Assembly: GCA_030248295.1 (NCBI GenBank)
Contig: JASANH010001455.1
Span: forward strand, 496,001 to 560,000
Origin: Mesodorylaimus sp. YZB2_4
Lineage: Eukaryota > Nematoda > Enoplea > Dorylaimida > Dorylaimidae
Length of the DNA stretch: 64,000 nucleotides
Direction of reading: 5' to 3'
A program made the translations under genes and the position numbers. Under the pieces are notes generated by a model. The model saw only the letters and a program-made list of their open reading frames with translations, had not been told where the DNA came from and did no database searches. How positions within the stretch are numbered: the stretch's first letter is position 1; every line of letters begins with the position of its first letter. Shown here one piece after another: positions 15,142-64,000 of the stretch.

Positions 15142-28323
<13,182 letters not shown>

Positions 28324-45100: not shown

Positions 45101-48100
45101 ATGGAGGAATCGGCGTGGGAGCTATCGAAAGAAAACATTCAGCCTCTGAAACAAGGTCGGCAACCAGCGATTTTATCGAAAGCATTGCGTGTTTCTACGG
45201 CTAACATACCTGGTGGTATATCGGCAGCGGGCGACGTTCAAGCAAATGCAAACAATTCAGCAACTTCGTCGGCCACGGTCGTCCGAGCACTCATTCTGCA
45301 GCAAGAGAAACAGTGAGCGCACTTTTTTGTGGGTTTCCTAAAATTTGCAGGTCTTTTTCGCGCTAAATATTTTGCGTAGGCTGTGTGATTATGTCGAGTT
45401 TAAAGCTGCGTCAAAATTTTGCTAAAAGGACCCTTCCCTTTCCGACGGCGGCGACGCACGTCAGGCGCAAAAGAAGGCATCCTCACTACTACTTTATATA
45501 CCTAAACCAAATTTTAAAAAAAAAAATAAAAAAACACAAAAACCAAAAAAAAAACAAAAAAAAAAAAATAAAAATAAAAAAATATAAACAATAATATAAA
45601 AAAAAAATATTAAAAAAAATTGCAATGTATCCATATCCGTATAAATCTCCATATACTTACTTTCTTTACTCCATCAAAAAGCTAATAAAATTATCGATAA
45701 TTTACTCGGGACTTTTCTGCACGAACCTCAAAAATTTACCCCCCCCACAATTTTTCCCCTCCCAAAGCCCCCCCCCCCCCCCCCACACCCCCACACCCTC
45801 CCACAAAAAAAACACCCAAAACACAAAGAGAAGCACGCGATGGCACCTATGCACTTTACGGGGCACAGCAAAATTTTCAAGTCCCGTCACGACTTGGAAC
45901 GAAGTAAAGTGCATAAGTACCGGGACTTTTAACTTTGTCGATATTTTTCGCTTTGTCTGATCGTGACCCAAGTTAATCAGTGAGAATGTCAAGTGACGCT
46001 CTGTGGACGGGCAACGTTGTGGTCGGAGCTCCAGGGATTGATAAAGTAGGAATCTTGCATAGCGTGCCCAATGCCCAGGGGTCGGCTGACATGTTAAACC
46101 AGTCACTGAAAATGTTTTGGAAATGGATGTCAGGGTGAATGAACTAGTACTTGCTCGTCATAGCTGAATTGCAGAAGGTAGACCAAGACGTCTGATAGTA
46201 CTGTAAGATACAGAATGAGAAGACCAATAAGCGCGGGATGGGCTGGGAGGCCATGCAAACGACGATCTGTCGTAGCCTTCACGTCAACGTCGCTCTCTGA
46301 ACCGCATGCGCCAATTACGATGCTGGGTGCGCACAGATTTCGCCTATGAGGATTTCTTTCATCAGAGATCACGTCAGAACACACACGACCAGAGCACATG
46401 AGTCACTCGATCACTCGCCATCTCTTCGTCAGCAGTTCTTCTTGGCCGGGATTAGATTGGCGGGGCCGACGGTCTCGTTGATCTTCCTGCACGTGCCCAG
46501 GACGCAGTACCAGTCGGGCTCGCTGGCCTTGCACTTGATTCCGTCCGGTATCTCATCAGGTTTCGACGACCCGCATTTGTACGACGTGCAGTCCCCGTCG
46601 ACGTCCAGACTGCATCCATCGCCGCGCACGCACTCGGCACATTTCCACACTCGGAATGGCAGGCCTGAAAACTCGAGAGTTAGAAGTTGCCACTTCGCAC
46701 TTAAACAGCCACTACGCACTTACCTTTGCACTTGCCCATCGCGGTTTGATCGTCACCGACTTTGCATCGAAGGTGTTGCATCCAGATGACTGCGTCCACG
46801 TTGTTCCCGCACGACGACTTCCCATTGCTACATCGCGAGCGATCGCCGAGTTGTTTCCTCTCGTCCAACACTGGCTTGGCGAGTCCCCAACACGCATTCG
46901 GCTCGTCGCAGTTGTCCTCCCACTCGCTCGTCTCGTTCCACTTCCCGACGTGGCCAGTGAACGCCTTGTCGCACTTGTCGTTGGTGCACACGCCCAGCCG
47001 CCCATCCTCCATCACGCACAGCAGACCAGTGCCGTTGGCGGGGGTTTCGCGTCGAGAGCTGGTTTCGTCCTTGACGTCGAAGTACTGCAATTCGCGCATT
47101 CGCTTCTCAAAAGCCCTGTACCAATATCTGGTGCAGTTTCCTGACGTGCATGAGTTTTTGTTCGGAGGCGAGCCAACCCAGCACGAACGGTCATTTCTAT
47201 ATGGTTGGCAAACGCCGTCCAAGAACGTGCGGGATTCTACGAAGAACGGCGGGATGCTGGTGGTGGTCGACGACTTGGAAGTGGTCGTAGCGCCCGTGGT
47301 CGTTGGCGGCGTCGCAGTCGAGGTGGTTGTGATCGCTGAGAGAACGCTGGCAGCGAGGAAGAATACGTTGCCGAGGATGTACAGGACGAACAGAATGATT
47401 ATGACTGCGTTTACGCACTTTTTGTGTCGCACACACCACCCTCGCAACTGTCCACACTTGTGGGACTGCAGTTGGCCGCCTTGTCCAGATGGTTGTGGCA
47501 AGAAGTCGTCGGGTTTGTGGTTCAGCCAGCGGGAATCTGGACGATCGGGCATCGGGAACAGGGGGGTGTCTGGAAGATGACGGCGGTTGGATGGCGAACG
47601 AAGGTCACTCGACGGCAGGGCGACCACGCGCACGCGGCGGAGTTCTGATAGCGACGGGAGCGGAATGTAGGTCTTGCCCGACGAGACGCCCACGGATCGC
47701 TTCGACTCTTTCTCGCAGACGGTCCTGGCGGCAGGATATGGAGTGCCCCTCGGTTCGTTCTTGTGGACGGTACTCGTCTGAGCCTTCGACGCGGTGCCCG
47801 GACGTGATGGCGGGTTGATGGGCACAGCTTGGGCCTTCTTCGGCAGCAGTTTGTTGATCTCGCCGTCTCGTTGCGGACCATCCTTTGGCAGCTCGTTGAA
47901 GTCTTGGCGACTCATTCTTGATGGATCAGAGAGAGGACACGAACTCTGAAAATAGAAAGCGGTCAGTTGGGCGGCAGTGTAAAAATAGCAGCAGGAGACC
48001 CTGACCTCGACGACGCTGAGGGCGGACACGACCGCACGGCAGACAGCTGACGAGCAGAATGAAGCGAAAAGTGGGGACGCTGTGGTCTCGATGAAGCACG

Positions 48101-51100
48101 CAGTTGCTGTCCATCAGTGCAAGAATAGTGTAAAGCCACGTACAGTGTAGCCGAGTGTAAAGTCCATTTTTATCTTACGTGACTTCCTGAAACTGGCGAT
48201 CTCTGAGTGCGCGAAACTCAAAAATTATAAATTAGGTGGAAGTCTGCCCGGGTGCATTAGTCGCAGCAAAAAGTGCAGGTTTAACTGAAATCGTGCCATC
48301 AATTGTGTTCAAGAAATGTTTTAAATTGTAACTGGCTCTTGAGTGGGAATTTTTGGACAGGAGTTGGTTCTTGCATAAAATTTAACACTGCTCTTTTAAA
48401 ATTTAGGGAATTCGAAGAAAATCTGAAGACATGCATGAACAGCCCGGATCCATTGGCCGTTTATTATCGATACGTTCGATGGATTGAAGAAACGCATCCC
48501 GCTGGAAAAGAGAAAGAAATTCGAGATTTGGTGAACAAATGCCTGACGTCGTTGAAAGATCAAAAATGGTTTGATAAATACGCCAACGATATTCGATATT
48601 TATATATTTGGCTGAAATTTGTAAGTTCTTTTTTTTGCGGAGGAGGTCTCACATTGGTCATAGATTCTTCGTTTTCTAGCAGGGACACAGTTTAGCATTG
48701 CAGTCAGGTCCTGTCCTCAGGTCGAGCTTCATTTTTTAGTCAGATGTCTTGGAGTTGGCTCGCGTCGTGACCGGAGTCTTGGACTCACGTCAGCGCGATT
48801 CATACCAAGGGGGGGTCAATGTTTGACAAAAGTGAGCGGCTACCTTGATACAAAATTGGGGTCACATAGGGGGCCCCCTCAGTTTCAAATGCTGGTGTGG
48901 CCGCCTAACCGACCTGACCCGATGTTGCATTGTATATTGCGCCTGTTATGATGTCTTCTGTTGCTGAGGGGCCATCCATGAAGGACATTTGCATTCAGGG
49001 GGTTGAAGGACTTCAGGCAAAACCAACACACAAACCGATCCAGCCCAGGTCGATGCTAGGGTTCCACTAGATCCTGACTTGATTCGACGACTCACAATTT
49101 TAGGCTTCATTCAGTAAGAATATGGGAAGCCATACAGTTTACGAATTCATGCGGTCGAATGGTCATTGCGTTCGTTTGGCTGGTTTTTATTTACAATGGG
49201 CTGGCGAGTTGGAAACGAGCGGTCATTACGACGAGGCAGCCAAAATTTTTCAATCCGGCATTCAAATGGAGGCACAACCGTTGACGTCGTTGGTAACTGC
49301 TTATGAGTAAGTGCGACTGTACGGGTCACCGGGGGGGGGGGGGGGGCTTGGACAGTGGTAGACGAAGTACACTCTCGAATCAATGTGGGAATATCGAAAA
49401 AGGATGTTTAGACTCAGCACCAGCCTTTGAGTGAGGTAGCCAAAATTTTGGACCGCTATCTCGATTTTTAAAGAAGTCGATATGTTCAACTCCCAAGGGT
49501 TCCCTGTGATCAAGAATATCGACTTTTTTACATTCCAGAGGTCTAGAATTTTGGCCAAATCTATAACACGAGTGTGCTGAATCTGAGCATCATATTTTCG
49601 ATATTCCGATATCGATTTTAGCAAATTCATAAGTTCGGGTCAGAAAATTGCACGCCAAGATTTCACAGAAGAGTCAGTCAGATTTTTATGATTTCTGATG
49701 AAATAATGGTATTTTTTAGAGAATTTCAAGCTCGTTATGCTCGTCGATTGATGGAAGAACAGAAATCGATTGCTGATGACGATGAAGACGCCACTCGAAA
49801 CGTGTTGGGCGTGCTGAAAGCTGTAGCGCCTCGACATGCCACCAGCGTGGTCTCAACCACGCCGTACATGCGTCAGAGTAAATTGGAAGAAGGTGAGCCA
49901 GTGTTTTCTTGGAATTCACTTTAAACTAGGAGGCTTCATGTAAGGCTAGAAAACCAGGTGAACCTGAAAAAGTGCCTGGAAAACCTAGGAAAATTGGAAT
50001 TTCGGCTCAAAATCAGGGAAAATTGAGAGGCTCTAAATTTCCAGTCACCCGCCCTTTCTGTTCTCATGCTGGAGGTTAGCGAGTCAGTCAGTTGATTGAT
50101 TGAGTAGTCATAGAAAAGGGTGGAAAAACAAATTTTGGCAGGAAAACCAGGAAAAATCATTTTCCGCTCCTTGTATCCCAGCATCGACCAATCGGCGAAT
50201 CAACTAAAATTTCTTTGGCTTTATCTGTTGGAAAAAAAGGTGTGGCGTACTAAAATGAGGAAATCGCGTTTTTTTCTCTCAAATCAGCATTTTATTCCAT
50301 TTCAGGCACTGGTTAATTCTCCTGTGTCCTTTAGACTAGAATTAAGAATAAAATATTTATTAATTTTTAGTGAAATGCGGCAAAGCAGCAATTTCGAATG
50401 AGAATCGTCGAACTGCTTTCGCAATTTACGAAGAAGATCAAGAAAACGCGGCCGCCTCGAAATTGCCGATAGCAACGGTTCGATCGAGCGCCATGAATAT
50501 TCCATCGGAAAAAAATTTCTGTAAAGAAAACGTACAAAATGCCGATATATGGACCAAAGCAAAAATTACTCAAGCGCCTTTTGTCAAGAAATCGATGCCC
50601 GCCTCGATGAAACCATTTTCAATTTATGTTGACGATTCGGCAACTTCGTCGGTTTTTATTACCGAATCGAGTCATAAATCTCAAAGTATTTTAGATTCGT
50701 CGATGAAATCGTGTAAAAGTCAATTTTTTACGGAAAATGGTGGTTTATTTATGTGTCGTATGGATCAGATTTACGACGGAGGGGTGGAGAAATCGTTGGA
50801 AGAATTACGCGTTCAACGATTTCAAGCGAAATATGGGAAGAAAATTGGTACGACACCATTTGCTAATCGTACACCATTCACGCCGATCGTTGATTCGATG
50901 TCGTCGGAATTGAATTTAAAGAAAATGGATCCGATTTGTTGGAATCAAGCGTCGAGTCCGCCCGGAAATACGTCTTTTACTCAAAATATTTATCGCGAAG
51001 CTATGGCCGCATTCAGTAATACGTTGCATTTGAGTAGTATCGGAGCGACGGGAGAAAACGATGAGGCGAGTGGACGACAATCGAAGAATGGGAATTCGAT

Positions 51101-54100
51101 GGCGGGTGGATTCGCTATTTTCGAAGATCCGCCAGTGATGGAAGGAGAAATGGGAAAAGAAGTGGATAAGGAAAATATTGATCCAAAAATTATGGGTTGC
51201 GCTGGAACGAATGAAAAGAAACGACGAAATGTGGCGGGAATTTTATGTCCATCGACGGAATTCGTATGTTTGAGCGAACGGAATAAGGACGATGTGATCG
51301 TTGTGGAAGAAGACGAGGAGCGGCCGCCGACTGCATCGACCTTGCCCGGACTGGCGTCGGCGACTGGCGGCCATACATCGTTCGATATCAATGAGAGTAC
51401 GGTGGCTGGATTTCATCGATTTTTGCCAGCGAATGGAAATCGCGCTTTTTCGACGCCGTGTTCGAATATGTCTCGAATGCAGCCATTGTCGCTGAGTTCG
51501 TACAGACCGTTGGATTTTGGCGATTCGGAGGAGACGACGGGCACGAATCTGATTATTGTCCTATCGGCACCGGAGAAACAGATGGAGGCGGGTGGAAGTG
51601 AGAATAGGGGGGAGGGGAATGGTGGTCAGTTGTCGGCGGACGTGGTGGCCAAGAATGGGAATATGGAACAGAAATTGAGCACTATTACCGAGACGTCTCG
51701 AGAATACGTGTCGAGCAGTACGAGTAGTAGCAGTACGACGACGACGAGTGGCAGTAATACTCGCAGGAGATTGCTGTCGGGTGCCAGCGCCGCTGCTACC
51801 ATGCCATCGATTAGCGAATGCGGCGATCCTGTTCGAAATGTATTGGCTTATAGTACGCCATTTTCCGATGGTTTTGGTCACGTGTTGACGGGCGCTAGCA
51901 CGGATGGCGTGAATGGAACGCCGTACGATGGCGCTACGATTAATAAATCAGGTGAGGGTTCGACTCCCGCTCGGAGCTAAAGTTTTTGTGCGGGATTGCT
52001 TAGTACAATGTTCATACAAGGTCAGGGAGTGTGAGAAGTGCCTGGGAAAATGGGGACCTTGCAACCAAAGTCTGGGGAAACTGAGAGGCTGCGTGTTGAG
52101 GTCTCAAAGTTCGGATCACCCGCCTTTTCTTTAACATCACTGACGGCTGTAGGAAGGGGATCAGATCGTGTTCCCAAACAGGGTGGTCGAAGTGTGGAGC
52201 TGGTAATCATTCTGGAAGTCAGGAAATCAGTTGTAATTGATTTAATAGTCGTGGGACAGCTAAAAAGGGAGCAGTCAATTTCTTTGCTGGAAAGCCTGGA
52301 AAAATCAGGGAATCATTTTCCACTCCTTGTTGATGTTAATAGCGACATGCGCAAGAATCCCCTGAACGAATTACTATGATATCCATGTAGTATGGTCTGG
52401 TGTATATTTCACGCCATTCTAGTATTTATCATTGCATTCATAACCAGGCGAGGTTCGATCCGGCAATCCTGACTGGGATCAGGATTGCCTGATTGAAATA
52501 GCGTTCGTTCGGGATCACGACAAGCATCGACCGATCCGACCCTATGCCTGTATCCCGATCCCAATCCGGCCGATCCGCTTCATGAAAAAACAAGATTGAT
52601 GGGGATGACGTGTTTGGCACTGAGTCCTCACCAACCTGTCCTGCTTCTTCGCTGTCACTCTCCATCAGACCACTCCACACACAGGAGACATGACCATCGC
52701 CCACGGTGGCATTGAATGTTGATTTCAAGTATTGGCAAGGTCGGCTTGGCTAGGGGGGTTTGGGGGGTACTGCTTTATAATGCGCCTTCTACGCTTTTTC
52801 CTGTTGTGAAATCTATGCTTCAACATTTTATATCCTTCAGTATTTCCTTGACTTGAATACCCTTCTTAGATGTGTTTGACTGAGTGTTATCAGTATATAC
52901 AATTAGACAAAGCAGACGTGGCGGCTGCTGGGGCTGGACCAGGCAAGCGAGGGACCTTGCTTGATATGTATAGATGATAGAACAAGCAGGACTTGGCTGC
53001 TGGCTATTTGGTTAGGTCAGGCTAGGAACTTGGTGAGTCAAGCTTCTGAATATATACTGAGTTGTACTTGAGGAGAAAAGCGAAACTAGCCCAGGCTAGG
53101 CTAGCTTTCCTGTGCAATGACAACGGCAAGCCTGATCTGATTGCGTGTGAGACATGTCAGGTTCGGGTCGAGTCGAGTGAGTTGCCTGACTGTTTACATC
53201 CAGTACTGTAGGCTGGCAGGACAATTGGCCTGTGCTTGGAGGCCAGGGCTTGGTCAGTCAGGTCAGGACTTAGTCCTGCCCAGATACAGTTCGATCGCTT
53301 TTGCTTCCTTCCTTTTCTTTCTTCCTGCTGGACCTGAGGGGGGAAGGGGGTTTCGAGAGGAGGGGTTTCAATGTCCTGGCCGGCCCTTCCCTCGCCCTTA
53401 CTTGGTTGATTTGAGACAAAGAAACGGGACTTTCTTATCATAGTATGCAACATTCTATCATTCCCAGCAGAAGAAGTGCGAAAAAGTTCAGTTGCCGATC
53501 CAGCAGTGGGATTGGATCGGGAACTGATCCACCCCCTGGATCGGTCGATGCTGGCATCGGGATCAGGAGTTTCAAAGTTGTTTTTTTTATTTTTAATTCT
53601 CTGTATGTACCCTACAACCCACCCCAAGTAGCCAGAAAATGTAGAGCCAAAATTTTTTTCGCAGTATTTGTCATTGCATTAAAAATCATGCAAGCAAAAA
53701 AAGCATAGAGTTAGTCATCAATTAGAAAACAAATGCCTTCCTTCCACTTTACCAGTTCAATCATCCACCAAAGTTCCTCCAGCTTACCCTTTTGGATCAC
53801 TCCCTTCCTCTCCCCTTCCCCTTATTTACACTTCTCCACAACATTCAATCCCGACGGGATCCCGAACTAACGCTGCATCACAGCACAGCAGAGCTCAGGG
53901 GCATTTTCGGGGCTCATGTGCCTTTTGATAATATCCTCTGTTTCAGGAAATCAAAAGTCGCATGTGGTTCGAAAATTATTGTTGAATGACGAGGATGGTC
54001 CCCAAGGCATGAATGAACCTATCGGGTAAGAAAATGGGTTTCTCGACGATTGCGTCAGTTGGGGGAGGGGGCTTGGATATCCTTTTTAGTGCTTGGATGT

Positions 54101-57100
54101 TTGTTCCTTGAAATTTTTTAAAGGGGACATCTTGTTTTCCGAGTGAAGTTGCCAGTAGAGTGAATAAATCTCCCTCACGGTCGATATGGGGGATTTATTG
54201 TTGGTCGTTGCCCCGCGGAATAGGGTCCGTCAGGGATATATGGACCTGGAAGGTTGAAGGCTGGGTCCTCCCATTTTGCAAGCCCGGGCGTGGGCTTTGC
54301 GTTCTCTGTCGAATGGGAATGTGTTGTGATCTGGGGCTGCTGTGCTAGCGAGATGTAGAGCCCTAAAGATCACGATCAGCACTTTTCTCCCAAGGATCCC
54401 CGAGGTTAGGAGCCTCAATAGTGCACCGACCTGACTGCCTGATCGTGGTCTCGTGAAACATCAACAGGATGGGTAAAGGGCGGTGCCTAATCGATAGTCT
54501 GCATGAACCAGACTCCATCACAGCATGTGAGCATTTAAATGAAGTACATTATGCAAATTCGTTGTAGAGCAAGTGCGGAGATGGCGATCAATCCGTGGAT
54601 GTCGTCGTTCGCGACGTATCAGTTATCGCGAGCCAGAAGACTCGAGAGTTATCCCAACTATCATACGTTCGATGAAAAACTGCCAGCAATGAAAGCGGGC
54701 CATACGGTTTGTTTGGGTAAGTGATATTGAGGCTGAGATGGCGGGGGACTGAGAGGTACTTGGACGATGGGAAGTCAAGCGGAAGTCAGTTGGGGATTGA
54801 CCAGAAAACGGCAGGCAGGCCAGCATCGACTGAACCGGCGTGGGCCAGATTGGGTTGGGGGCAGAGCCAAACTGTGGATCAGCTGCATCAAAATTTTGAA
54901 TTCCCGCCATAATAATTGTCTGTGGGCTAAAATATCTTATCAACCCCTCCTCGGCTAACTTTGGGTGTCTTTTATCAATGAAAAAACATGAGCAAGCGCA
55001 ATACAACGTTGGGTCGGGCCGATCTGGCTGGACCTTGGGTTGGCTTGGGTCAATTCGGTTCAGTGGCCTGACACCTCTCATCGGTCGATGCTAGAAGGAA
55101 GGCGCAGGAATTCAGGGCAAGTATGGGCAAGGTCGGCTGGGTTAGCAGGGGGTTAGGGGGTAGGAACACAGATCAGATCGCCTGAGCCTGATCTGATTGC
55201 ATGTGAGATAGGTTAGGTCAGGTTTGGGTCGAGTGAGTGACTTGCATGACTGTTCACATTCAGTACTGGAGGCTGGCTGGACAGTTGGCCTGTGCTTGGA
55301 GGCCAAAGCGTTATCAGTCAGGTCTTGGTCCTGCCCAAATACAATTTGATCGTTTTTGCTTGCTTTCTTTTCTTTCTTCCTGCTTGACCTGAGGTGGGGA
55401 GTTTCGAGAGGAAGGGTTAAATGTCCTGGCCGGCCCAACAGGGGGGTTTACCCCCTCTTACCCTCCCCCTTGCTCATACTTGATCAGGGCATAGTATACT
55501 ATACGGAGTCGCGCTGGAGATGGCTTATGGCGAGGAGCTAGGGTTCTCCGTCTGAGGGTGATGCCTTGTTACTAGCCTGAGCGGTGGTGACTGAATATTC
55601 GGCCACTATTGTCTTATCCGTCTGTGCTGCCAGTGACTTCCTGCCAGTACTGGTCACTCACTGGTCTGGTCGTTGGTACATAGGTTAAGCGTTCTAGACT
55701 GGGACCTAGACCCGGGGAGGGGGAGTGTCGGGCGGGTATCTCGTGAATACAGCCTTAGCAGTGTCCATTTCTTCATTTAGGCGGCGAGACGTACTTGATT
55801 TTGGGTGTGGCTGGCGAAGGAGCGTATGCGAAAGTGTTCAAATGTCATTTGGAGAACGAAGACAGCGAGGAGTTCGCGTTGAAGGTGAGCGGACATTATT
55901 TGCATTATGGAGGTTTCGAGTGGATTTTTGTTTTGTAGGTTCAAAAACCGTGTTGCCCCATCGAATTCTATATTTGTCAAGAATTGTATCATCGTTTGAA
56001 ATCGATTAATTTGTTGGAAAGTGTGGAGCGAGGATTGACGCTGTTTCGGGACGCCTATATGTTCACGGACGGCAGTGTTCTGGTGGGCGAATATGCGCCC
56101 TATGGAACTTTGCTCGATTTGGTCAATGTGTATAAACAAATTAGCAGCGAACAAAGCCCGCCCGAAATTATTGTGGCTTATTTGACGGCTGATATTTTAC
56201 GCATTTTGGAAGCCGTACATGGCCAGAAGATCATACACGGCGATGTGAAGCCGGATAACTTCCTCGTGCTCGATGCGTAAGTCAAGGGGCGGGTTCGAGT
56301 CCCTCTTGGATCGAGTCTTTTGCATTGCAATTGAGGGGAAGTTTGAATGCATTTCTAGTGACACGTAAAAACTTGTGCCTTGGGTGGGATTCGAACCCAT
56401 GTCATGCTGTATCCAAAGCCAAGCAATTTACAGCGCACTCCAGGGCCAAGGAACATATCGATAATAATCTTTTACCAAGGCGGGAGTCGAACCCTCCCCT
56501 AGCGTGTGAGAGGCAGACGCTAACCGCTAGGCCCTGGTCCGGTAGCCGCCTGTGGCATTGGAGTTGAACGGCTGTTCATGGCCCCTTTTTCCGTGTCCAC
56601 GTTGAAGTTTTTTTCAGACCCTCGTTGGATGTTGGCGATGTATCGAAAGTCCCGAATGTGCGTTTGATCGATTGGGGTCGTTCGATCGACATGGCCTTGC
56701 TGCCTCCGTCGATAACGTTTTGCGGTCCCTCGAAAACGTCGGGATTTTTGTGCTGCGAGATGCAGGATGGACGTCCTTACACATATCAGGTGAGTGTGGA
56801 GACGGAGGGGGAGGGGTGTTAGTGAAGGAAAGTTGATATTCTAGACGGATTATTACGGCATACTGGGCACAGTACACGCCTTGGCATTCGGTGACTACAT
56901 GACCACCTACAAGGTGGCCTCGACCAACACCTGGCGTATCAGTCGCACTTTCAAAAGGTATTGGGCGAGTGTGAATTGGTGGAACTGGCACTCGTAGGTG
57001 GTATTTTAGGCCAACCGTGGGATTAAGGGGCTTGGAATTTCACAGAAATGGGACTTTTAAGATTGGGAATCCAACTTTTGGAACCAAACCCGAGGCTAGT

Positions 57101-57632
57101 TATCAAAGGTTCAGTTCAGGATGGGGATTGGTGGCGGAATGGTCATGGCGATTTTTGGAGACAGGAACAGATTCCTGATAATTTGGGGGGGGGGTCATGT
57201 TTCGGTGGACGTCAGGGGAGATTCTGACATTCCATTCGAGGAATCTGGCTAAGGAGGAATTCTATGCCACCTCAAACCAGGTCCGATATCGGTCAACTGA
57301 GCACCAGTCGATGCGGCCTCCAAGAATGTTTTTACCCAGCACGGAATCTTCAGGCCTTGTGTCCAGTGTCTCGAGAGTTCGCCTGTTTTGACTGGATCAA
57401 TTTTTTCAGGCGTTGGGATGATCGTTTATGGCGAGAATTCTTCGATGCCTTCTTGAACATTGCCGACTGCTCATCACTGCCTTCTTTGGGCGAATGGCGG
57501 CAACGATTCGATGATTTTGTGGACAGGAATCGCGCAATTCGTCCATCCGTATTTGTGTCGGAAGTGAAGAAAATGCGGGACGTTTTGGTGGAATTGAAGA
57601 GATCTTTGGCGAAGAAGAAGAAACTGGTTTGA
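45101..57632 (+). CDS. BUB1: Undivided Mad/Bub spindle-checkpoint protein (BUB1 kinase plus Mad3/BubR1 features)
   Basis: Kinetochore checkpoint protein that restrains APC/C-Cdc20. 12 exons: 45101-45312, 48407-48620, 49104-49306, 49720-49892, 50371-51951, 53947-54025, 54568-54716, 55781-55884, 55939-56276, 56618-56789, 56845-56957, 57410-57632, about 1186 residues. In order: first KEN box (SKENIQP, residues 10-12); TPR domain (YVRWIEETHPAG, FYLQWAGELE, AAKIFQSGIQMEAQPL); a cassette of ABBA motif FAIYEE (284), KEN (319) and ABBA FSIYVD (350); a GLEBS-like Bub3-binding segment (IYDGGVEKSLEELRVQRF, about 400-420); a third ABBA FAIFED (515) and KEN (534); a PP2A-B56 motif LSTITE (703) in a KARD-like setting; then the kinase: GEGAYAKV, LKVQKP with Lys about 905, HGDVKPDN with Asp 1007, IDWG with Asp 1036. 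The kinase matches BUB1, not degenerate vertebrate BubR1. Intron 1 hosts an antisense gene. Confidence 0.95.
45500..45800. repeat. Low-complexity A-rich tract and C homopolymers in checkpoint-gene intron 1
   Basis: About 110 bp of nearly pure A with scattered T and C (45515-45620), then C runs of 8 (45739-45746) and 17 (45768-45784). Open frames here are compositional artefacts. Confidence 0.7.
45841..45935. repeat. Short perfect inverted repeat
   Basis: CCTATGCACTTTAC is mirrored by GTAAAGTGCATAAG, and inside it TTTTCAAGTCCCG faces CGGGACTTTTAACTTTG beyond the right arm. The alternative pairings could give hairpins of two sizes. Role unknown; it lies downstream of the nested antisense gene. 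Confidence 0.55.
46200..48380 (-). repeat. Segmental duplication, copy 1 (nested gene plus flanks)
   Basis: This stretch in checkpoint-gene intron 1 matches 59030-61290 in WDR91 intron 1 in the same orientation. The match includes the nested gene, its 3' flank (CAGAACACACACGACCAGAG, then GAGTCACTCGATCACTCGCC) and weaker 5' flank words (AAGTGCAGGTTTA / AAGGTGCAGGATTA, TGAGTGGGAA, TGTTCTTGCAT-like). The left limit is unclear. Confidence 0.7.
46429..47915 (-). CDS. Nested cysteine-rich type II membrane protein, paralog A (unrecognised family)
   Basis: Family not recognised. Two coding exons, 47915-46724 and 46664-46429, joined across a 59-base intron; about 475 residues. An upstream acceptor near 47947 implies a 5' leader exon. 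The start MSRQDFNELP is chosen because paralog B has a Met at the same place (MSVYQEISK). Residues 1-168 are Pro/Arg/Lys-rich and lack a signal peptide; 169-193 (NAVIIILFVLYILGNVFFLA onward) is one hydrophobic span with basic residues before it, so a type II topology is likely. Next is a Thr/Ser-rich stalk, then an ectodomain with about two dozen Cys, N-glycosylation sites (WNETSEW, INETVG) and repeated DG-x2-C...G-x-C modules (FLDGVCQ, GLLCVMEDGRLGVCTNDKC, IPDGIKCKASEPDWYCVLG). It lies wholly inside intron 1 of the checkpoint gene, antisense to it. Confidence 0.8.
49380..49628. mobile_element. TA-flanked MITE in checkpoint-gene intron 3
   Basis: The left end CACTCTCGAATCAATGTGGG after TA (49378-49379) and inner words (ATCAAGAATATCGACTTTTT, CATCATATTTTCGATATTCC) match 25762-26036. 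The right end is diverged. It follows a run of 17 G (49330-49346). Confidence 0.55.
49930..50175 (+). repeat. Interspersed repeat of the AGGAAAAATCAGGGAAA family
   Basis: In checkpoint-gene intron 4. Starts near TTCATGTAAGG and ends near CATTTTCCGCTCCTTGTA, so ACAAGG-type ends are roughly inverted. The interior GCCTGGAAAACCTAGGAAA, AAATCAGGGAAAATTGAGAG and GTCACCCGCCCTTTCTGT is shared with 52012-52335. Confidence 0.55.
51952..51985 (+). repeat. tRNA T-arm-like sequence abutting the exon 5 splice donor
   Basis: GTGAGGGTTCGACTCCCGCT begins exactly at the splice donor of checkpoint-gene exon 5 (GT at 51952). GGTTCGACTCC is a perfect B box. AGTTTTTGTG follows, as in the fragment at 24070. Confidence 0.5.
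52012..52335 (+). repeat. Interspersed repeat of the AGGAAAAATCAGGGAAA family
   Basis: In checkpoint-gene intron 5. Left end ATACAAGGTCAGGGAGTGTG, right end CATTTTCCACTCCTTGT, roughly inverted. The interior matches 49930-50175. Confidence 0.55.
52522..53553. mobile_element. MITE, CAGCATCGACCGATCC family, split by a later insertion
   Basis: The left half (from AAGCATCGACCGATCCGACC) runs to 52725 and the right half resumes at 53413, ending GGATCGGTCGATGCTG. Together they match the intact copies at 9346 and 58236. The break is filled by the 679-bp element 52726-53404 plus its target duplication. Confidence 0.75.
52726..53404 (+). mobile_element. hAT-type MITE, CAAGTATGGGCAAGG family, long copy nested in another MITE
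   Basis: Ends CAAGTATTGGCAAGG and CCTCGCCCTTACTTG are inverted. The insertion duplicated 8 bp exactly: GTTGATTT at 52718-52725 and 53405-53412. It carries the family's right-hand core (TACAGTACTG-like, AGTTCGATCGCTTTTGCTTC, CTGGCCGG) plus some 300 bp of extra left-hand sequence that the short copies lack. No transposase frame. Confidence 0.85.
54821..55093. mobile_element. MITE with CAGCATCGACTGAACCGG ends
   Basis: In checkpoint-gene intron 7. Inverted ends CAGCATCGACTGAACC and TCATCGGTCGATGCTAG, 273 bp. The terminal bases match the 9346 family but the interior differs. Reversed pieces resembling it lie in HID1 introns (33660-33840 and 29040-29170). Confidence 0.6.
55118..55482 (+). mobile_element. 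hAT-type MITE, CAAGTATGGGCAAGG family
   Basis: Ends CAAGTATGGGCAAGG and CCTTGCTCATACTTG are inverted, 365 bp. Flanks ATTCAGGG and ATCAGGGC look like an 8-bp duplication with one lost base. The interior matches 32364-32697 along its whole length. Confidence 0.8.
56285..56312 (+). repeat. tRNA T-arm-like sequence near the exon 9 splice donor
   Basis: GGCGGGTTCGAGTCCCTCTT, a B box, starts about ten bases after the donor of checkpoint-gene exon 9 (GT at 56277). Confidence 0.45.
56378..56555 (-). repeat. Two tRNA-like heads, minus strand (tRNA pseudogenes or SINE heads)
   Basis: At 56380-56395 the minus strand reads GGGTTCGAATCCCACC. At 56478-56552 it carries GGCCTAGCGGTTAGCG, then GAGGGTTCGACTCCCGCC, with ends ACCAGGG and CCTTGGT able to pair as an acceptor stem. 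The middle resembles tRNA-Glu or -Val but the anticodon stem does not pair properly, so a working tRNA is unlikely. Confidence 0.45.
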
Positions 57633-57732
57633 TGATTGTATTTATCGAGATGCTCATTTGACCATCACCTTATTTTCTGGGTCCCCTTACTTGTGGTGTT
57701 CCTAATTTCGTAGCTCGACCTCGTTTCAGTCC

Positions 57733-57738
57733 AATAAA
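57733..57738 (+). terminator. AATAAA poly(A) signal of the checkpoint gene
   Basis: AATAAA 101 bases past the stop codon at 57632 and about 100 bases before the WDR91 start, so the two genes are closely packed head-to-tail. Confidence 0.6.
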
Positions 57739-57835
57739 GTGTGGCATGCGAGGGTGGCTGGTTGTGGCCCGACCTGGCTCCGTCCATGTGCATTGCGAGT
57801 GCAGTGGCCCAGGGTGCTGACCGTGTGTTTCAGGC

Positions 57836-60800
57836 ATGTCGTCGGTGGTCGACGCCTTGATCAAAGAGTATTTCGTCTTCCGGGGCTTCGCGGCCAGCTT
57901 GAAACAATTTGAAAATGACCTCAAGCACGAGAATGAGAGGGGCGGATTTCGAGTGGATAAAGTGGTCGAACAGATTTGTGCCCTCATCTCGTCCTTCGAT
58001 TTGAGAAGTTTGAGAGAACTGTGGAATCATTTGGAGAATAAGGTCTTTTTGTATTTGACCAGGGTAAGTGGTGGTTGTGTGCTCCCGGGGGCCTCACCCG
58101 TCACGATGATGTTTCAGCCAGGACTGGGGCGGAAGACTTGGTTGTCGCGGGTGCAAGAGATGATACCCCAGCGTGTAGAAATCGATAGCCAGGGCCCTGC
58201 TTCCATTAATAACTGCAAATTGACGAGTGACAGGCCAGCATCGGCCGATCTGACCCTAGGCCTGGGTCCCGATCCGATCCGCTTCAAGAAATAGGAGATA
58301 GATAGGGATGACGTCTTTGGCGCTGCGTCCTCACCAACCTGCCATGGTTCCTCGCTGCCACTCCGAAGGACACAGGAGAGATAAGCAGCACCGAAAGCGA
58401 AATTGAATTCTGAGTTGAGAGAAAAAACGGCATTTTCTCGTTAAACTCTCACATTCTGTCATTTCCCAGCAGAGAAAGCGCGACAAAATGTATTAGTTGC
58501 CGGTCGGATCGGGAACTGATCCACCCCTCGGATCTGTCGACGCTGGGTGATCAGTCTGGTCAAACTGAGTTACAGAAAAACGTCAGGCCAGCACCTGCCA
58601 AGCTTGTCGATGCCATGGTGCAACTTGCCCAAATCAGCCTCTGCACGCCAAGGGTTCAACCTGAGGATTGAATGGATGGTGGAATTCAGCGGGCGGGGTT
58701 TGCGACATCCGCGATTCTCCGACTGGGGCGAGCCGACCACGCATTCATCCTGAATGACGGACTGTGCAGATGGTCAGAGGTCCGGGAATGCGCGTGGTGG
58801 GTGGATCGTGGAGGCGTCGAGGTCGTCGTGGTTGATGTGAATATCGTAAAGATTATGACAGCGATGACGAGCAGACTTGAAGAATCACGAGGACGATTAT
58901 GACCCTGACTCTTCCCGCCTGGAATCCCTGCTCTGGTTTGAACTTGTGCATGAGCTGACCACAAAATGGCCCAGGTCCATCGCTCAGTGCACTGTGAGAC
59001 TTATCGGTCGGGCAACTTGCGTCTATCGCAATGCTTGGTGTGCACAGATTTCGCCTGTGAGCATTTCTTTCATCAGAGAATCACGTCAGAACACACACGA
59101 CCAGAGCACATGAGTCACTCGATCACTCGCCATCTCTCCATCAGCAGTTCTTCTTGGCTGGGACTGGATTGGTCGGGCCGACGGTCTCGTTGATCTTCAT
59201 GCACGTGCCCAGGACGCAGTACCAATCGGGTTCGCTGGCCTTGCACTTGATCCCGTCCGGTATCTCATCAGGTTTTGACGACCTGCATTTGTACGACGTG
59301 CAGTCCCCGTCGACGTCCAGACTGCAACCGTCGCCGCGCACGCACTCGCCGCATTTCCACACTCGGAATGGCAGGCCTGAAAAACCAAAAGTCAGAAATC
59401 GAAAACAGGCAGCCACTTCGCACTCACCTTCGCACACGCCCATCGCCGTTCGATCGTCTCCGACTTTGCATCGCAGGTGCTGCACCCAGATGACCGCGTC
59501 CACGTTGTTCCCGCACGACGTCTTCCCACTCATGCATCGCTGACGATCTCCGAGCTGTTGTTTCATGCGCTTCATTGCAGCCATGTTTCCTTCCCAGCAG
59601 TCGATCATCTCGTCGCAGTTGTCCTCCCACTCGCTCGTCTCGTTCCACTTCCCGACGTGGCCAGTGAACGCCTTGGCGCACTTGTCGTTGGTGCACACGC
59701 CCAGCCGCCCATCGTCCATCACGCACAGCAGACCAGTGCCGTTGGCGGGGGTCCTGGTTTCAGTCTTGGATTGGTCGTTGAATTGGTAGTATGTCGACTC
59801 ATCCGTTTCCATCTGGTCCACTTTGTACGAGTAGCGAACGCACTTGCCCGACGTGCACGAGTCTTTGTCAGGAGGCGAGCCAACCCAGCACGAACGTGCC
59901 CCTTTCACTTTGCAAACGCCGTCCAAGAACGTGCGCGATTGTCCGACGAACGAGGGGATGCTGGTGGTGGTCGACGGCTTGGCAGTTGATGTTGAGGCCG
60001 TTGGCGAGGTGGTCATCGACATTCGACGAGTCGAGCGGACCATCGCCGTGGTGGTTCTTTGGGGCCAGTAGACGTAGACGACGACGCCAGTCACGGCACC
60101 GACCATCAGGATGAGCATGACGACGAAGATGGCGATCCAGCATTTCGCGTTTCGGTCGCAGCAGTCCTTCTTCCTTTCCCACAGGCGGGTGTGGAAGTCC
60201 CCATCTGGTGCCGTGGGCCATTTCCGTTTTAGTTGCGAGTCGATTTTCCGAGGATTCTTCTTGCCGCTTGGACTTTCTCGCAGTTGGGGTCGATTTGGCT
60301 GGGGGGAGCGAGGGCTGGTTCGAGGACGGTGGAGTTCGGATGGCCGATCGCTTTTTTTCGATGGGATGTAGCTGGGATCGGAGACGGTGCTGATGACGTG
60401 CAGGGATGGGAGCGGATTGAAGGTGCCGGGGATGAGGGTCTTGCCCGACGATTCGCCAACGGATCGCCTCGTCTCGTTCTCGTAGACGGTCCTGGCGGCA
60501 GCGGATGGAGCGCCCCTCGGTTCGTTCTCGTAGATGGTGCCCGTCTGCGCCTTCGACGCGGTGCCTGGACGGGATGGCGGGTTGATGGACGACGGAGCCC
60601 CTCGCAGCATCGACGACGGGTCGACCTCGCGGTGTCGTTGGGGACCTTTCACGGGTGGTTGTTTCGTGGACGATTCGCTGAGCTCGCGGTATCGTTGGGG
60701 ACCGGGCGCAGCGATTTCTTTCTTGGACGACTTGCTGATCTCTTGGTAGACGCTCATTTTCGACGGAGCAGTTGGAGCAGAGGCGGACGATGCGAACTCT

Positions 60801-63800
60801 GAAAACAGAAAGCAGTCAGTTGGGCGGCAGTGTAAAAATGGCAGGAGGAGACCCTGACCTCGAACGACGTTGAGAGAAGATTGGACACGACCGCACGGCA
60901 GACTGATGACGAGCACAATGAAGTGAAAAGTGAAACTGGTGTGGACTGGATGAGAGTGTAAAGCACGCAGCTGCTGTCCATCGGAACAAGTTCAGTGTGA
61001 AGCTACGAAGAGTATGGCCGAGTGTAAAGTTCATTTCGCGGTATCACGTGACTGCCCGAATGTGGTGGTCGCTCAGCGCGCGAAATTCAAAAGTTAGAAA
61101 ACTGTGCAAGCCAGTGTGCCCCCGTCGCGATAACAAGGTGCAGGATTAGCATAATTCTCGCCATCAATCTTTTTTCGCAGAAAGGAGCGTGTATCTCGTG
61201 TTGTAGCTGCTTTAATCAAGAAATGCTTGAAATCGTGACTGACTCGTGAGTGGGAAATTTCGTGAGAGCGTTTGTTCTTGCATGAAAAACAGGCCAGCTA
61301 TAGCACAAAGAAGAGGGTAGTGCGATTTTTGTCTGACTCGGATATGAAGAAGGAAGCAGCGCGGCTTATTCGAATAAGAAAAATGAAGAAAACGGCTCCT
61401 CGTTTGCGCATTTTTGCGCAAAGTGCTTCTCTTTTAGTCATCGAACTTGAAAAACTTGAATTTCACTCTTGGTGACATGGTCGTGTAAGAAATAGAAAGA
61501 CTGTGACAGTGCGACTGGGGTGCGGTGCGCCCACGCGTGCTGATGTGCGACACTCGCAGTGTCAGGCCTGGATAGTAAATGGATCAGGGAAGGGGTTCGA
61601 GTGAGTCCTCCTTTCTTATCGTTTCTGGTTCAGAGTTCTTCAAACTCCTGCTGTCCCCTCGCTCGTATGCGCCGGGTAAGCGAGGAAGAGGCGAGCAACT
61701 CTCGCAGCAGCTCCCTCTGATCTCCACTAGGAGCACCTCCACGCAAGGGCATCCTGTGCCAGCGCCAGTGTCCCAGGACGAAACTGGGCGAGGGACCTTG
61801 CCAACTGGTGTTCGAGAAGCAGTTTCCTGATTCTCCTCTCGACGGTACTGGGTGTGCACGGGCAAGACTAGTTGCCCCTGACAATTGCCACCCTCAGTCA
61901 AAATAGAACTGCGACCTCCCAATCAGGGTTGCTAGTCCAGGCATGTCGGTGTAATATGGGGCCAGCCGACTGGACAAAGAGTACACTCTGAGATGCACTG
62001 TTGAGGGGAGGGGCACTGAGAATGAGGGTGGTGGGCAATCAATGGCATGTGGTGAAGTGCTGTTGGGTTTGTGTGGAGTGAACTAGCCACCACTGATGTG
62101 CTGTGAGGCCCAGTCTGAGCTAGCTTAGACTGACTCGAGTCTCCATTTCGACCATGTTTCAGGAGCAATCGAAACACGCGCACCAGTTTAGGGACGATCT
62201 GTACCGTTACTACTTGGTCGTGTGCGTGCAGAATCGACGGACGGACAAGGCGGCTGAGTTCTTCGAAGTGTTGGCGCCCAGCTTGCACGCCGTCGATGGT
62301 TGGAACGAGTGGTTTGGTGAGTGGGTGTGGTCTGCTCCATCCCAGGGGAGGACAGTTGATGGCGGGACTACAACCGAGGGCTGTCCCCTGGGATGTTCTC
62401 TGGGGAAGCTGCGACCCATAACCCAGAAGCATGCGTTTTTACAGAGCAGTATGTAAGACGGAATGCTGGAAAAAGACACGCTTTTGTAATCCAATAGGGT
62501 CAATAGGAATTCCGACAAGCATTCTTACAAGACATTTGAAAACCCCTGTCATTCTCAAAAATTCTTGTAAGTGTTCTTGTCCGAATTTTGTGCAAGAAAT
62601 TAGGAAAGTCTTCGCAGTCTTCTTGCAAGTCTTAGCAATGTTTTGTGAGCGCGTGGTCGCAGCGCTGCAAGCCTCCAAGAGCTAGAACGTTATGTCAAAG
62701 AATCTTAGTCAGTCATTCAGGCCTGCCGCCTCAAAGCCAAAGTCTGTGCTAGGTTTTTGGATTATATATAGCTAAATATCAGATTGTGCCCTCGCGGCTA
62801 TGGCATCTTCCGCCAGTGCTGAACGAATGTTTCAAAAAGTACTGTACTCGAATCATTCATGGCAATTAAAGGGCCGTCCACATTGCACCTTGTCAGCTAA
62901 GGTGCTCTTCACATTGCGACTATCAGCTCGGCTAACTCACAAGTCATTCGCGGTCGGCTCAGTTTGCGGCTTGCGGTTAAGCCAGCTCGGCAGGGAGAGT
63001 TGAAAATTTTTAGTTTTTCCAGCCGAGGCCAGCCGAGCTTGGAATAATCGTTCCAGAGTTATCAACAGGAAAGTAGCCGATTTCGATTAGAACATGGATT
63101 ATCATGAAATTATTGAATTATTATGAACATATGAAACCTTATATCGGTTCTAGCGGCTTGGAATCTCAAAAACTTCAGGGTTTGAACCAGGAAATTTAGG
63201 AAAAAAAGCGGGTGGCGTCTGATGCGAGTCGGCATCATTTGCGTGAGGGGAACAGGTGGGACTGAGGCGTGAACTTTGGCATTTTAATCCAAAACACGAT
63301 TCGAGAATTGGTCTCGAGGAAGTCTAGAAATAGTGTGATTCAAGATTTACAGAAGGCACGCTAATTGAATTTAGAAACGAGCAGCTACAGTGAAGTTAGC
63401 GGCCGCGGTGGTGCAGCAGTTCGGCATTCGTCTCTCCGTATTGCTTGGGAGCGAGTGGCTGGACTTGTCCCGGGCTCGATCCCCGCTGATGGAGGTCGGT
63501 TTGCAAAACCATAAACCCTCGCTGACCTGCACGCCAGGCCGTGGGTGACTCACCTAGTACCCTAGAGGTGCTCCGAGTGGAGAGACGGAAGCCAAACGAG
63601 GAGACAGTCTCGGCTGTCGAAGACGGACAAGGTTCACAGCCTGCCCGCCATCGTCCGAGGAAGTCGGTGTCTTGTCCAGGATGGCCTCGCATACCTCATA
63701 ATTGATCTAGATCTAGATCAATATATTACCTCATAATTGATCTAGAGCAACTTTGACTCCGTTGAAAAACATATATTTATCAATATGTTTTTATGATCAT

Positions 63801-64000
63801 TGAGTGTTATCACTGCGTTTTGAAATTTCCTGTGCTATTGAGTATAAATCGTGCAATTTTTGACTGCCTCCCAATTGATCTAGAGCAACTTCGCCTTCGT
63901 TTAAAAGACAAACATTTATTGATATATTTCTATGATCATTGAGTGTTATCACCGCATTTGAAAATTTTCCGTGCTATGAAGTATGAATCGTGCAATTTAT
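57836..64000 (+). CDS. WDR91: WDR91 homolog, first two coding exons (gene continues past the window)
   Basis: WDR91 is a Rab7 effector that inhibits PI3-kinase complex activity during early-to-late endosome conversion. Only the N-terminal part is here: exon 1 57836-58063 (76 residues: MSSVVDALIKEYFVFRGF, GGFRVDKVVEQI, LRELWNHLENKVF) and exon 2 62163-62316 (HQFRDDLYRYYLVVCVQNRR, KAAEFFEVLAP, GWNEWF). They align with the start of human WDR91 ([42 protein letters not shown]). The WD40 repeats are off the window; I found no further exon between 62317 and 64000. A TTTCAG just before the start codon hints at an upstream leader exon. Intron 1 (4.1 kb) contains antisense paralog B. Confidence 0.92.
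58236..58545. mobile_element. MITE, CAGCATCGACCGATCC family, in WDR91 intron 1
   Basis: Ends CAGCATCGGCCGATCTGACC and GGATCTGTCGACGCTG, 310 bp. The interior (TGGGTCCCGATCCGATCCGC, GTCCTCACCAACCTGCC, AGGACACAGGAGAG) is collinear with 9346-9722. No clear target duplication. Confidence 0.75.
59030..61290 (-). repeat. Segmental duplication, copy 2 (nested gene plus flanks)
   Basis: Counterpart of 46200-48380. Identity is highest over exon 3 of the nested gene and its 3' flank and falls off towards the 5' side. Confidence 0.7.
59141..60757 (-). CDS. Nested cysteine-rich type II membrane protein, paralog B (unrecognised family)
   Basis: Paralog of the gene at 46429-47915, antisense inside WDR91 intron 1. 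Exons 60757-59428 and 59376-59141, about 521 residues. The intron between them (59427-59377) is 51 bases, a multiple of three and free of stops, so retaining it would only add 17 residues. The N-terminus is longer than in A and repeats GPQRxRE (GPQRYRELSE, GPQRHREVDP). Shared with A are NPPSRPGTASKAQT, the RTV(C/Y)E motif, one hydrophobic span (CWIAIFVVMLILMVGAVTGV), a Thr-rich stalk, FLDGVC, NGTGLLCVMDDGRLGVCTND, GKWNETSEWEDNCDE and a nearly identical last 78 residues ending PAKKNC. The cytoplasmic part and membrane span have diverged much more than the ectodomain. Function unknown; a cell-surface or shed binding protein is a guess. Confidence 0.8.
   Translation of the reverse strand: MSVYQEISKSSKKEIAAPGPQRYRELSESSTKQPPVKGPQRHREVDPSSMLRGAPSSINPPSRPGTASKAQTGTIYENEPRGAPSAAARTVYENETRRSVGESSGKTLIPGTFNPLPSLHVISTVSDPSYIPSKKSDRPSELHRPRTSPRSPQPNRPQLRESPSGKKNPRKIDSQLKRKWPTAPDGDFHTRLWERKKDCCDRNAKCWIAIFVVMLILMVGAVTGVVVYVYWPQRTTTAMVRSTRRMSMTTSPTASTSTAKPSTTTSIPSFVGQSRTFLDGVCKVKGARSCWVGSPPDKDSCTSGKCVRYSYKVDQMETDESTYYQFNDQSKTETRTPANGTGLLCVMDDGRLGVCTNDKCAKAFTGHVGKWNETSEWEDNCDEMIDCWEGNMAAMKRMKQQLGDRQRCMSGKTSCGNNVDAVIWVQHLRCKVGDDRTAMGVCEGECEVAACFRFLTFGFSGLPFRVWKCGECVRGDGCSLDVDGDCTSYKCRSSKPDEIPDGIKCKASEPDWYCVLGTCMKINETVGPTNPVPAKKNC
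61670..61930. repeat. Interspersed repeat fragment
   Basis: CAGCAGCTCCCTCTGATCTC, CACTAGGAGCACCTCC and GGGCATCCTG match the tail of the tRNA-headed repeat at 30225-30285. Confidence 0.5.
62791..62832 (+). pseudogene. hAT transposase C-terminal (dimerisation domain) remnant
   Basis: One frame reads LAAMASSASAERMF, the core of the hATC dimerisation motif (hydrophobic block, then SSAxSERxF). Stops flank it within about 30 residues upstream, so only a scrap of the transposase is left. Confidence 0.4.
63396..63690 (+). repeat. tRNA-headed interspersed repeat (SINE-like)
   Basis: Head GTTAGCGGCCGCGGTGGTGC, then a B box GGGCTCGATCCCC, GGTTTGCAAAACCATAAACC, and tail CCGCCATCGTCCGAGGAAG. Collinear with the minus-strand copy at 30170-30715. 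Confidence 0.6.
63700..64000. repeat. Satellite-like tandem repeat, period about 138 bp, cut by the right edge
   Basis: AATTGATCTAGAGCAACTT occurs at 63735 and 63873, each followed by TATGATCATTGAGTGTTATC and TCGTGCAATTT. At least two units are present, with a short extra AATTGATCTAGATC at the front. It probably continues beyond the window. Confidence 0.7.

Follow-up and report, generated by a model that had tools for sequence, protein, structure and literature searches.

Two antisense intronic genes of a Mesodorylaimus nematode belong to a large mosaic family encoding putative cysteine-rich membrane proteins

Results

Two related genes lie antisense in introns of neighbouring genes

We analysed a stretch of 64,000 nucleotides from the nematode Mesodorylaimus sp. 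YZB2_4 (assembly GCA_030248295.1, contig JASANH010001455.1, positions 496,001 to 560,000 of the forward strand; hereafter the window), which carries two related genes, A and B, each on the minus strand within an intron of a plus-strand gene (Table 1). The contig is called C46 below, and family loci outside the window carry L numbers. A runs from an ATG at 47915 to 46429 and encodes 475 amino acids, with a single 59-bp GT-AG intron (46665-46723); B runs from an ATG at 60757 to 59141 and encodes 521 amino acids, with a single 51-bp intron (59377-59427). These ends and the minus strand agree with those of the original prediction. The small intron occupies a matching place in the two genes, both frames are open and the splice sites are kept.

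Each protein contains one strongly hydrophobic stretch (residues 170-188 in A and 208-226 in B), which is followed by a Thr-rich stalk and a Cys-rich ectodomain that carries 22 cysteines and three or four sequons for N-glycosylation. In A, five Lys/Arg residues precede the transmembrane segment and none follows it, favouring a type II orientation. Most likely, A/B-type proteins are type II membrane proteins, and they would function at the cell surface. A Pfam search with the joined ectodomain of B gave no match above the cut-off. When 13 members were compared with Pfam, the matches were weak (best E 0.0019), with B missing the cut-offs, which were seen for B alone; a PDB search with the 13-member profile gave no match.

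A resides in a BUBR1/Mad3-like checkpoint gene. Splicing from 45312 to 48407 yields one continuous frame, and A lies wholly between exons 1 and 2 on the opposite strand, confirming the proposed position in intron 1. A further part of the checkpoint gene, nearer to B, includes a protein kinase domain match (PF00069) at 56023-56280 and a frame at 57264-57632 that was assigned by eye as the 3' end and has no Pfam match.

The host of B is a WDR91-like gene, whose exons 1 and 2 match human WDR91 and splice in frame. B lies wholly between these two coding exons, again on the opposite strand. It had been assigned to the first intron of WDR91, which holds for the first coding intron; because a 3' splice-site-like TTTCAG stands just upstream of the start codon, this intron is not surely the first overall.

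A and B are distant members of a dispersed family

As predicted, A and B are similar at the DNA level in the same orientation over parts of 46307-48380 and 59018-61287 (83% identity over 981 columns, 86% over 160, 75% over 403 and 81% over 73), but positions 47283-47661, which hold the transmembrane segment of A, had no match in this comparison. A genome search with the protein of B exon 1 matched 60 of 61 scored candidates at E <= 0.001. C46 accounts for 24 of these stretches, distributed over 18 places, and the other 36 are spread over 21 further contigs. These counts are lower bounds, and the stretches were grouped into places by hand. The nearest relatives of B are found on C46 at 637 kb (89% at the amino-acid level), 333 kb (88%) and 615 kb (85%), with A at 52%, and 13 chosen members align with common cysteines.

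In a DNA tree of the ectodomain (14 members), A grouped with L016, L017 and L018 (100/98) and B with L019 and L011 (100/99). A clade of A and B was rejected, its log-likelihood being 97 lower (approximately unbiased test, p 2.9e-57), and a tree of the 5' part again set A apart from B with moderate support (90/92). Since the genes are mosaic, any single tree is a summary only.

Retrocopying is ruled out by the small intron that A and B retain at the identical place. A mobile element with fixed ends was rejected as well, as B homology stops at varied points among copies (terminal-repeat tools were not run). In the openly licensed literature, no paper could be linked to the A/B family, which lacks a name under which it could be sought.

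B lies in a 6.6-kb segment present twice in inverted orientation

The 6.6-kb segment around B, which holds the kinase-end part of BUBR1, WDR91 exons 1-2 and B, recurs in inverted orientation about 220 kb away, where L011 is the inverted twin of B. The two sites are 100% identical over a 223-base query taken from WDR91 exon 1. Beyond the segment, the flanks differ: the upstream BUBR1 exons 1-2 lie in the window, whereas WDR91 exon 3 lies at the other site only. In the 2.9 kb beyond C46:338066 there was no match to the window BUBR1, a comparison made at that site only and not as a genome-wide search for BUBR1 exons. Each end thus appears to adjoin a different remnant of an ancestral BUBR1-WDR91 neighbourhood, from which we infer a staggered-break inversion of about 220 kb; as judged from this one arrangement, such an inversion fits best as the source of the inverted duplication.

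The genome holds a single copy of WDR91 exon 3 (C46:331049-331255). In the window this exon has no credible match, and WDR91 stops there after exon 2. Therefore, the window copy of WDR91 is probably truncated.

Just past the inverted duplication, window positions 62416-64000 run into dispersed repeats with at least 46 matches on at least 34 contigs (best 40 of 3913 candidates scored), so that one breakpoint adjoins repeats.

Family members are mosaics of short cassettes

Divergence between B and L011 amounts to 42 of 121 sites within 60070-60190 (35%), compared with 117 of 6452 outside that patch (1.8%). The mismatches cluster to as many as 45 in 150 sites, a density reached by none of 1000 shuffles. 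The 120-bp transmembrane cassette of B, strongly different in L011, recurs almost unchanged at two places on C46 (Table 1) and at 81-82% identity at three further places. Across the transmembrane block, identity among B, L010 and L012 reaches 99-100%, whereas L011, otherwise the twin of B, stands at 63%. In its similarity, the transmembrane cassette contradicts its flanks and is common to another paralog, as expected of interlocus gene conversion; this could reflect either a gain in B or a loss in L011. Genome searches gave no second match for the L011 transmembrane cassette and, with a 301-base query from the transmembrane part of A, no DNA match to that part elsewhere, the other 13 matches all starting at base 179 or later.

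The same pattern extends to the ectodomain. Block-wise identities reveal conserved blocks, mostly above 86% in the closer members, that are separated by cassettes of distinct types. In loop 1 (59960-59760), B and L011 share one type (with L019 at 96% in the part covered) and L010 and L012 another, with which L014 sides in 59880-59760 only. Loop 2 (59640-59540) comes in three types, found in B and L019, in L011 and L022, and in L010, L012 and L014, respectively. For the triple B/L010/L011, the 173 informative sites fall into 36 runs, and none of 5000 shuffles gave as few; in all eight triples run, long runs of the shared-site pattern were unmatched in 5000 shuffles each.

L010 (C46:635708-639928) also carries, at about 638.4-638.7 kb, an N-terminal in-frame tandem repeat, QRYRELSESSTKQPPVKGP, in three copies; it is present once in B.

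Other members also lie opposite to genes or gene pieces

We defined 28 loci (A, B, L010-L014, L016-L022, L024 and L026-L038) and surveyed the surroundings of 22, with L027, L029, L030, L033, L036 and L037 outside the survey. The survey relied on neighbouring open frames, in some cases within a 1.5-kb flank only and for four distant members within 10 kb each; host exons were chosen by codon score and by eye, and the choice is subjective to that extent. Five of the 22 loci (A, B, L011, L014 and L021) lie antisense within a host gene, representing four placements as B and L011 count as one, and four more (L016-L019) lie beside DPP3- or DGKE-like pieces. In each of these nine, the family member and its named host or piece occupy opposite strands.

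A DGK-epsilon-like gene, recognised with a human query, lies on the minus strand of C46 (382008-381697, 378671-378510, 377887-377603, 377325-377002, 376467-375991 and 371031-370834). L021 (379.4-380.5 kb, plus strand, with stops) is located between its first two matches and L014 (373.9-375.1 kb, plus strand, open) between its last two; a Rab-like gene lies a few kb from L014 on the same strand as L014. L018 and L019 are tail-to-tail with DPP3-like 3' ends, and L016 and L017 stand beside DGK-epsilon-like gene fragments joined to DPP3-like tails. We take the 3' ends beside L018 and L019 to be DPP3-like from a HELLGH motif and a sequence resemblance seen by eye, not from a family search. In each of two chimeric segments (C46:1500-4400 and, on another contig, C212:101560-103960), a family member is joined to a DPP3-like 3' tail and to part of a DGK-epsilon-like exon.

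As the family holds at least two further antisense intronic members, a second intronic landing is less surprising than the window alone suggests. Among human nested genes, about 63% lie opposite to their host in strand (PMC3192792). Four antisense placements are therefore not significant alone, and we make no claim beyond the known bias.

Features of the window and further observations

The coordinates of all features are collected in Table 1. Elsewhere in the window, open frames at 21021-26644 resemble an animal fatty acid synthase gene, as judged by eye. The whole genome contains no exact copy of the usual 22-base nematode SL1 spliced leader, despite 133 Col_cuticle_N (cuticle collagen) matches that mark it as a nematode genome. 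A search for pectate lyases gave no match, and the same search found none in control genomes either.

Table 1. Features at the A and B loci; positions are those of the window unless C46 is named
Feature	Position	Strand	Remarks
BUBR1/Mad3-like coding exon 1	45101..45312	+	KEN box, WELSKENIQPLKQGR
BUBR1 intron 1	45313..48406	+	contains A
A exon 2	46429..46664	-	end of Cys-rich ectodomain
A exon 1	46724..47915	-	N-terminal part, one transmembrane segment, Thr-rich stalk, most of Cys-rich ectodomain
BUBR1 exon 2 (part)	48407..48618	+	Mad3_BUB1_I, PF08311, 3.4e-16
6.6-kb segment	55823..62416		inverted at C46:331418-338066; 95.4% identity overall, with 1.8% divergence outside 60070-60190
Part of checkpoint gene in duplicated segment	55984..57632	+	
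WDR91-like coding exon 1	57836..58063	+	
WDR91 first coding intron	58064..62162	+	contains B
B exon 2	59141..59376	-	
B exon 1	59428..60757	-	
B ectodomain cassette (loop 2)	59568..59646	-	clustered differences from L011; L019 of the same type
B transmembrane cassette	60056..60175	-	100% at C46:615740-615865, 99% at C46:637856-637981
WDR91-like exon 2	62163..62316	+	

Discussion

From the gene anatomy, the family size, the tree, the inverted duplication and the mosaic pattern, all of them observed directly, we consider it probable that the large mosaic family to which A and B belong was spread by segmental duplication and reshuffled by short conversion. The family would encode single-pass proteins with a Pro/Ser-rich N-terminal part, a transmembrane segment, a Thr-rich stalk and a Cys-rich ectodomain. 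It would spread by segmental duplication, with pieces of neighbouring or host genes moving along with some copies; spread at the DNA level is suggested by the identically placed small intron of A and B and by the host pieces that travel with some copies. Several copies would come to rest antisense in introns or tail-to-tail beside genes. A staggered-break inversion would have left the 6.6-kb piece, in which B sits among parts of BUBR1 and WDR91, duplicated at both ends of the inverted stretch, and later short gene conversions (about 80-120 bp) would have replaced transmembrane and ectodomain cassettes among paralogs. Segmental duplication and short gene conversion, both known processes, appear to account best for the mosaic. 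Opposite nesting, segmental duplication, gene conversion and inversion with duplicated ends are each known, and no new mechanism is required.

Other readings deserve consideration. According to the original prediction, about 2.2 kb with A or B was copied 12.7 kb away into an intron of the neighbouring gene. The two intact-looking antisense paralogs, each in a first coding intron, are real, as is their same-orientation DNA similarity, but the direct copying of one from the other was not borne out: B has several much closer relatives, the clade of A and B is rejected, the transmembrane stretch of A is unmatched in B, and the flanks of B match those of L011 over 6.6 kb. We regard a direct copy as very improbable. 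Strong positive selection at hypervariable spots of each gene, with no exchange between genes, might instead produce the mosaic, and the ratio of nonsynonymous to synonymous divergence (dN/dS) between B and L011 indeed reaches 2.8 over the transmembrane segment and stalk and 2.5 over loop 2. However, the alternative cassettes are common to paralogs at 96-100% DNA identity in differing combinations, and silent sites differ too (dS 0.39 between B and L010 in loop 1, compared with 0.01 in the N-terminal part). Thus, the pattern is not one made by point selection, and this reading is unlikely.

Somewhat less unlikely is the possibility that A and B are decaying pseudogenes and their nesting is debris of segmental duplication. 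The dN/dS is near 1 in many comparisons, L020 and L021/L025 contain stops, and some host pieces are broken; yet the frames of A and B are long and open with splice sites intact, 11 further aligned members have open ectodomains with the common cysteines, and the last block of exon 1 has a dN/dS of 0.06-0.39 in five of nine pairs (of the others, B/L013 has 0.74, two have silent changes only and one has none). We give a similarly low probability to the inverted 6.6-kb copy being an assembly artefact or a misplaced allelic stretch. Near-identical inverted repeats can produce misjoins, and identity outside the divergent patch is about 98%, but the two sites differ beyond each end: the upstream BUBR1 exons are present in the window, the 2.9 kb past C46:338066 are free of a window BUBR1 match, and WDR91 exon 3 is present at the other site only.

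Several points weigh against a history of segmental duplication and short conversion. No host was recognised for 13 of the 22 surveyed loci, including L010, L012, L013 and the four distant members. Over the whole of exon 1, dN/dS is 0.6-1.0 in eight of nine pairs and 1.8 in B/L011, so that constraint is weak or masked by conversion; the value for B/L011 is driven by the transmembrane and loop-2 cassettes, as the import of diverged cassettes would do. The type II orientation is favoured weakly in B, with six Lys/Arg and five Asp/Glu residues before the transmembrane segment and four Lys/Arg after it. Misassembly at the 6.6-kb inverted repeat, or an inversion polymorphism, may be the source of the arrangement around B. 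Finally, distal WDR91 with its WD40 repeats was found neither with the human query nor by eye in 5 kb of open frames, and both WDR91 copies may thus be incomplete.

As A and B illustrate, a seemingly simple local nested copy can belong to a dispersed, mosaic set of genes. The locus would also provide a case of known order, in which an inverted duplication, now 1.8% diverged, was followed by replacement of a cassette in one copy. For annotation, the probable truncation of the window WDR91 is a warning, and the combination of processes in one expanded nematode family that lacks a Pfam model merits annotation. If cassette exchange is adaptive, the family would be a candidate source of nematode surface variation with a recognition or immune-facing role. 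We further hypothesize, with considerable doubt, that antisense intronic and tail-to-tail sites are the regular habitat of the family and that it diversifies by biased exchange of the transmembrane and two ectodomain-loop cassettes. Biased exchange would be a paralog-based counterpart of the shuffling of antigen or recognition genes, and host transcription might guide it.

Parts of this arrangement resemble known systems. Among nematodes, 567 opposite nested gene pairs are reported for C. elegans (PMC12274878), in which, as here, a protein-coding gene lies wholly within a host intron on the other strand; here, paralogs of one family occupy introns of at least three hosts, and some host pieces are co-duplicated. 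Conversion tracts between Caenorhabditis paralogs are mostly 50-200 nt and commoner within a chromosome (PMC3966223). The tracts of about 80-120 bp fit this range, but here they fall on the transmembrane segment and the loops of the ectodomain, making new combinations. In Drosophila, inverted duplications at breakpoints mark staggered breaks (PMC5080602). The 6.6-kb segment is alike in that breakpoint DNA is duplicated in inverted orientation with differing neighbours past each end; here, the inversion is deduced from one arrangement, and the duplicated piece carries a nested gene. The HYP effectors of cyst nematodes (PMC11228951) are likewise nematode proteins with a rearranged variable part, a likeness by description. 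Variation in HYP is allelic, at single loci and in motif arrays, whereas the variation around A and B is distributed among dozens of putative membrane-protein paralogs.

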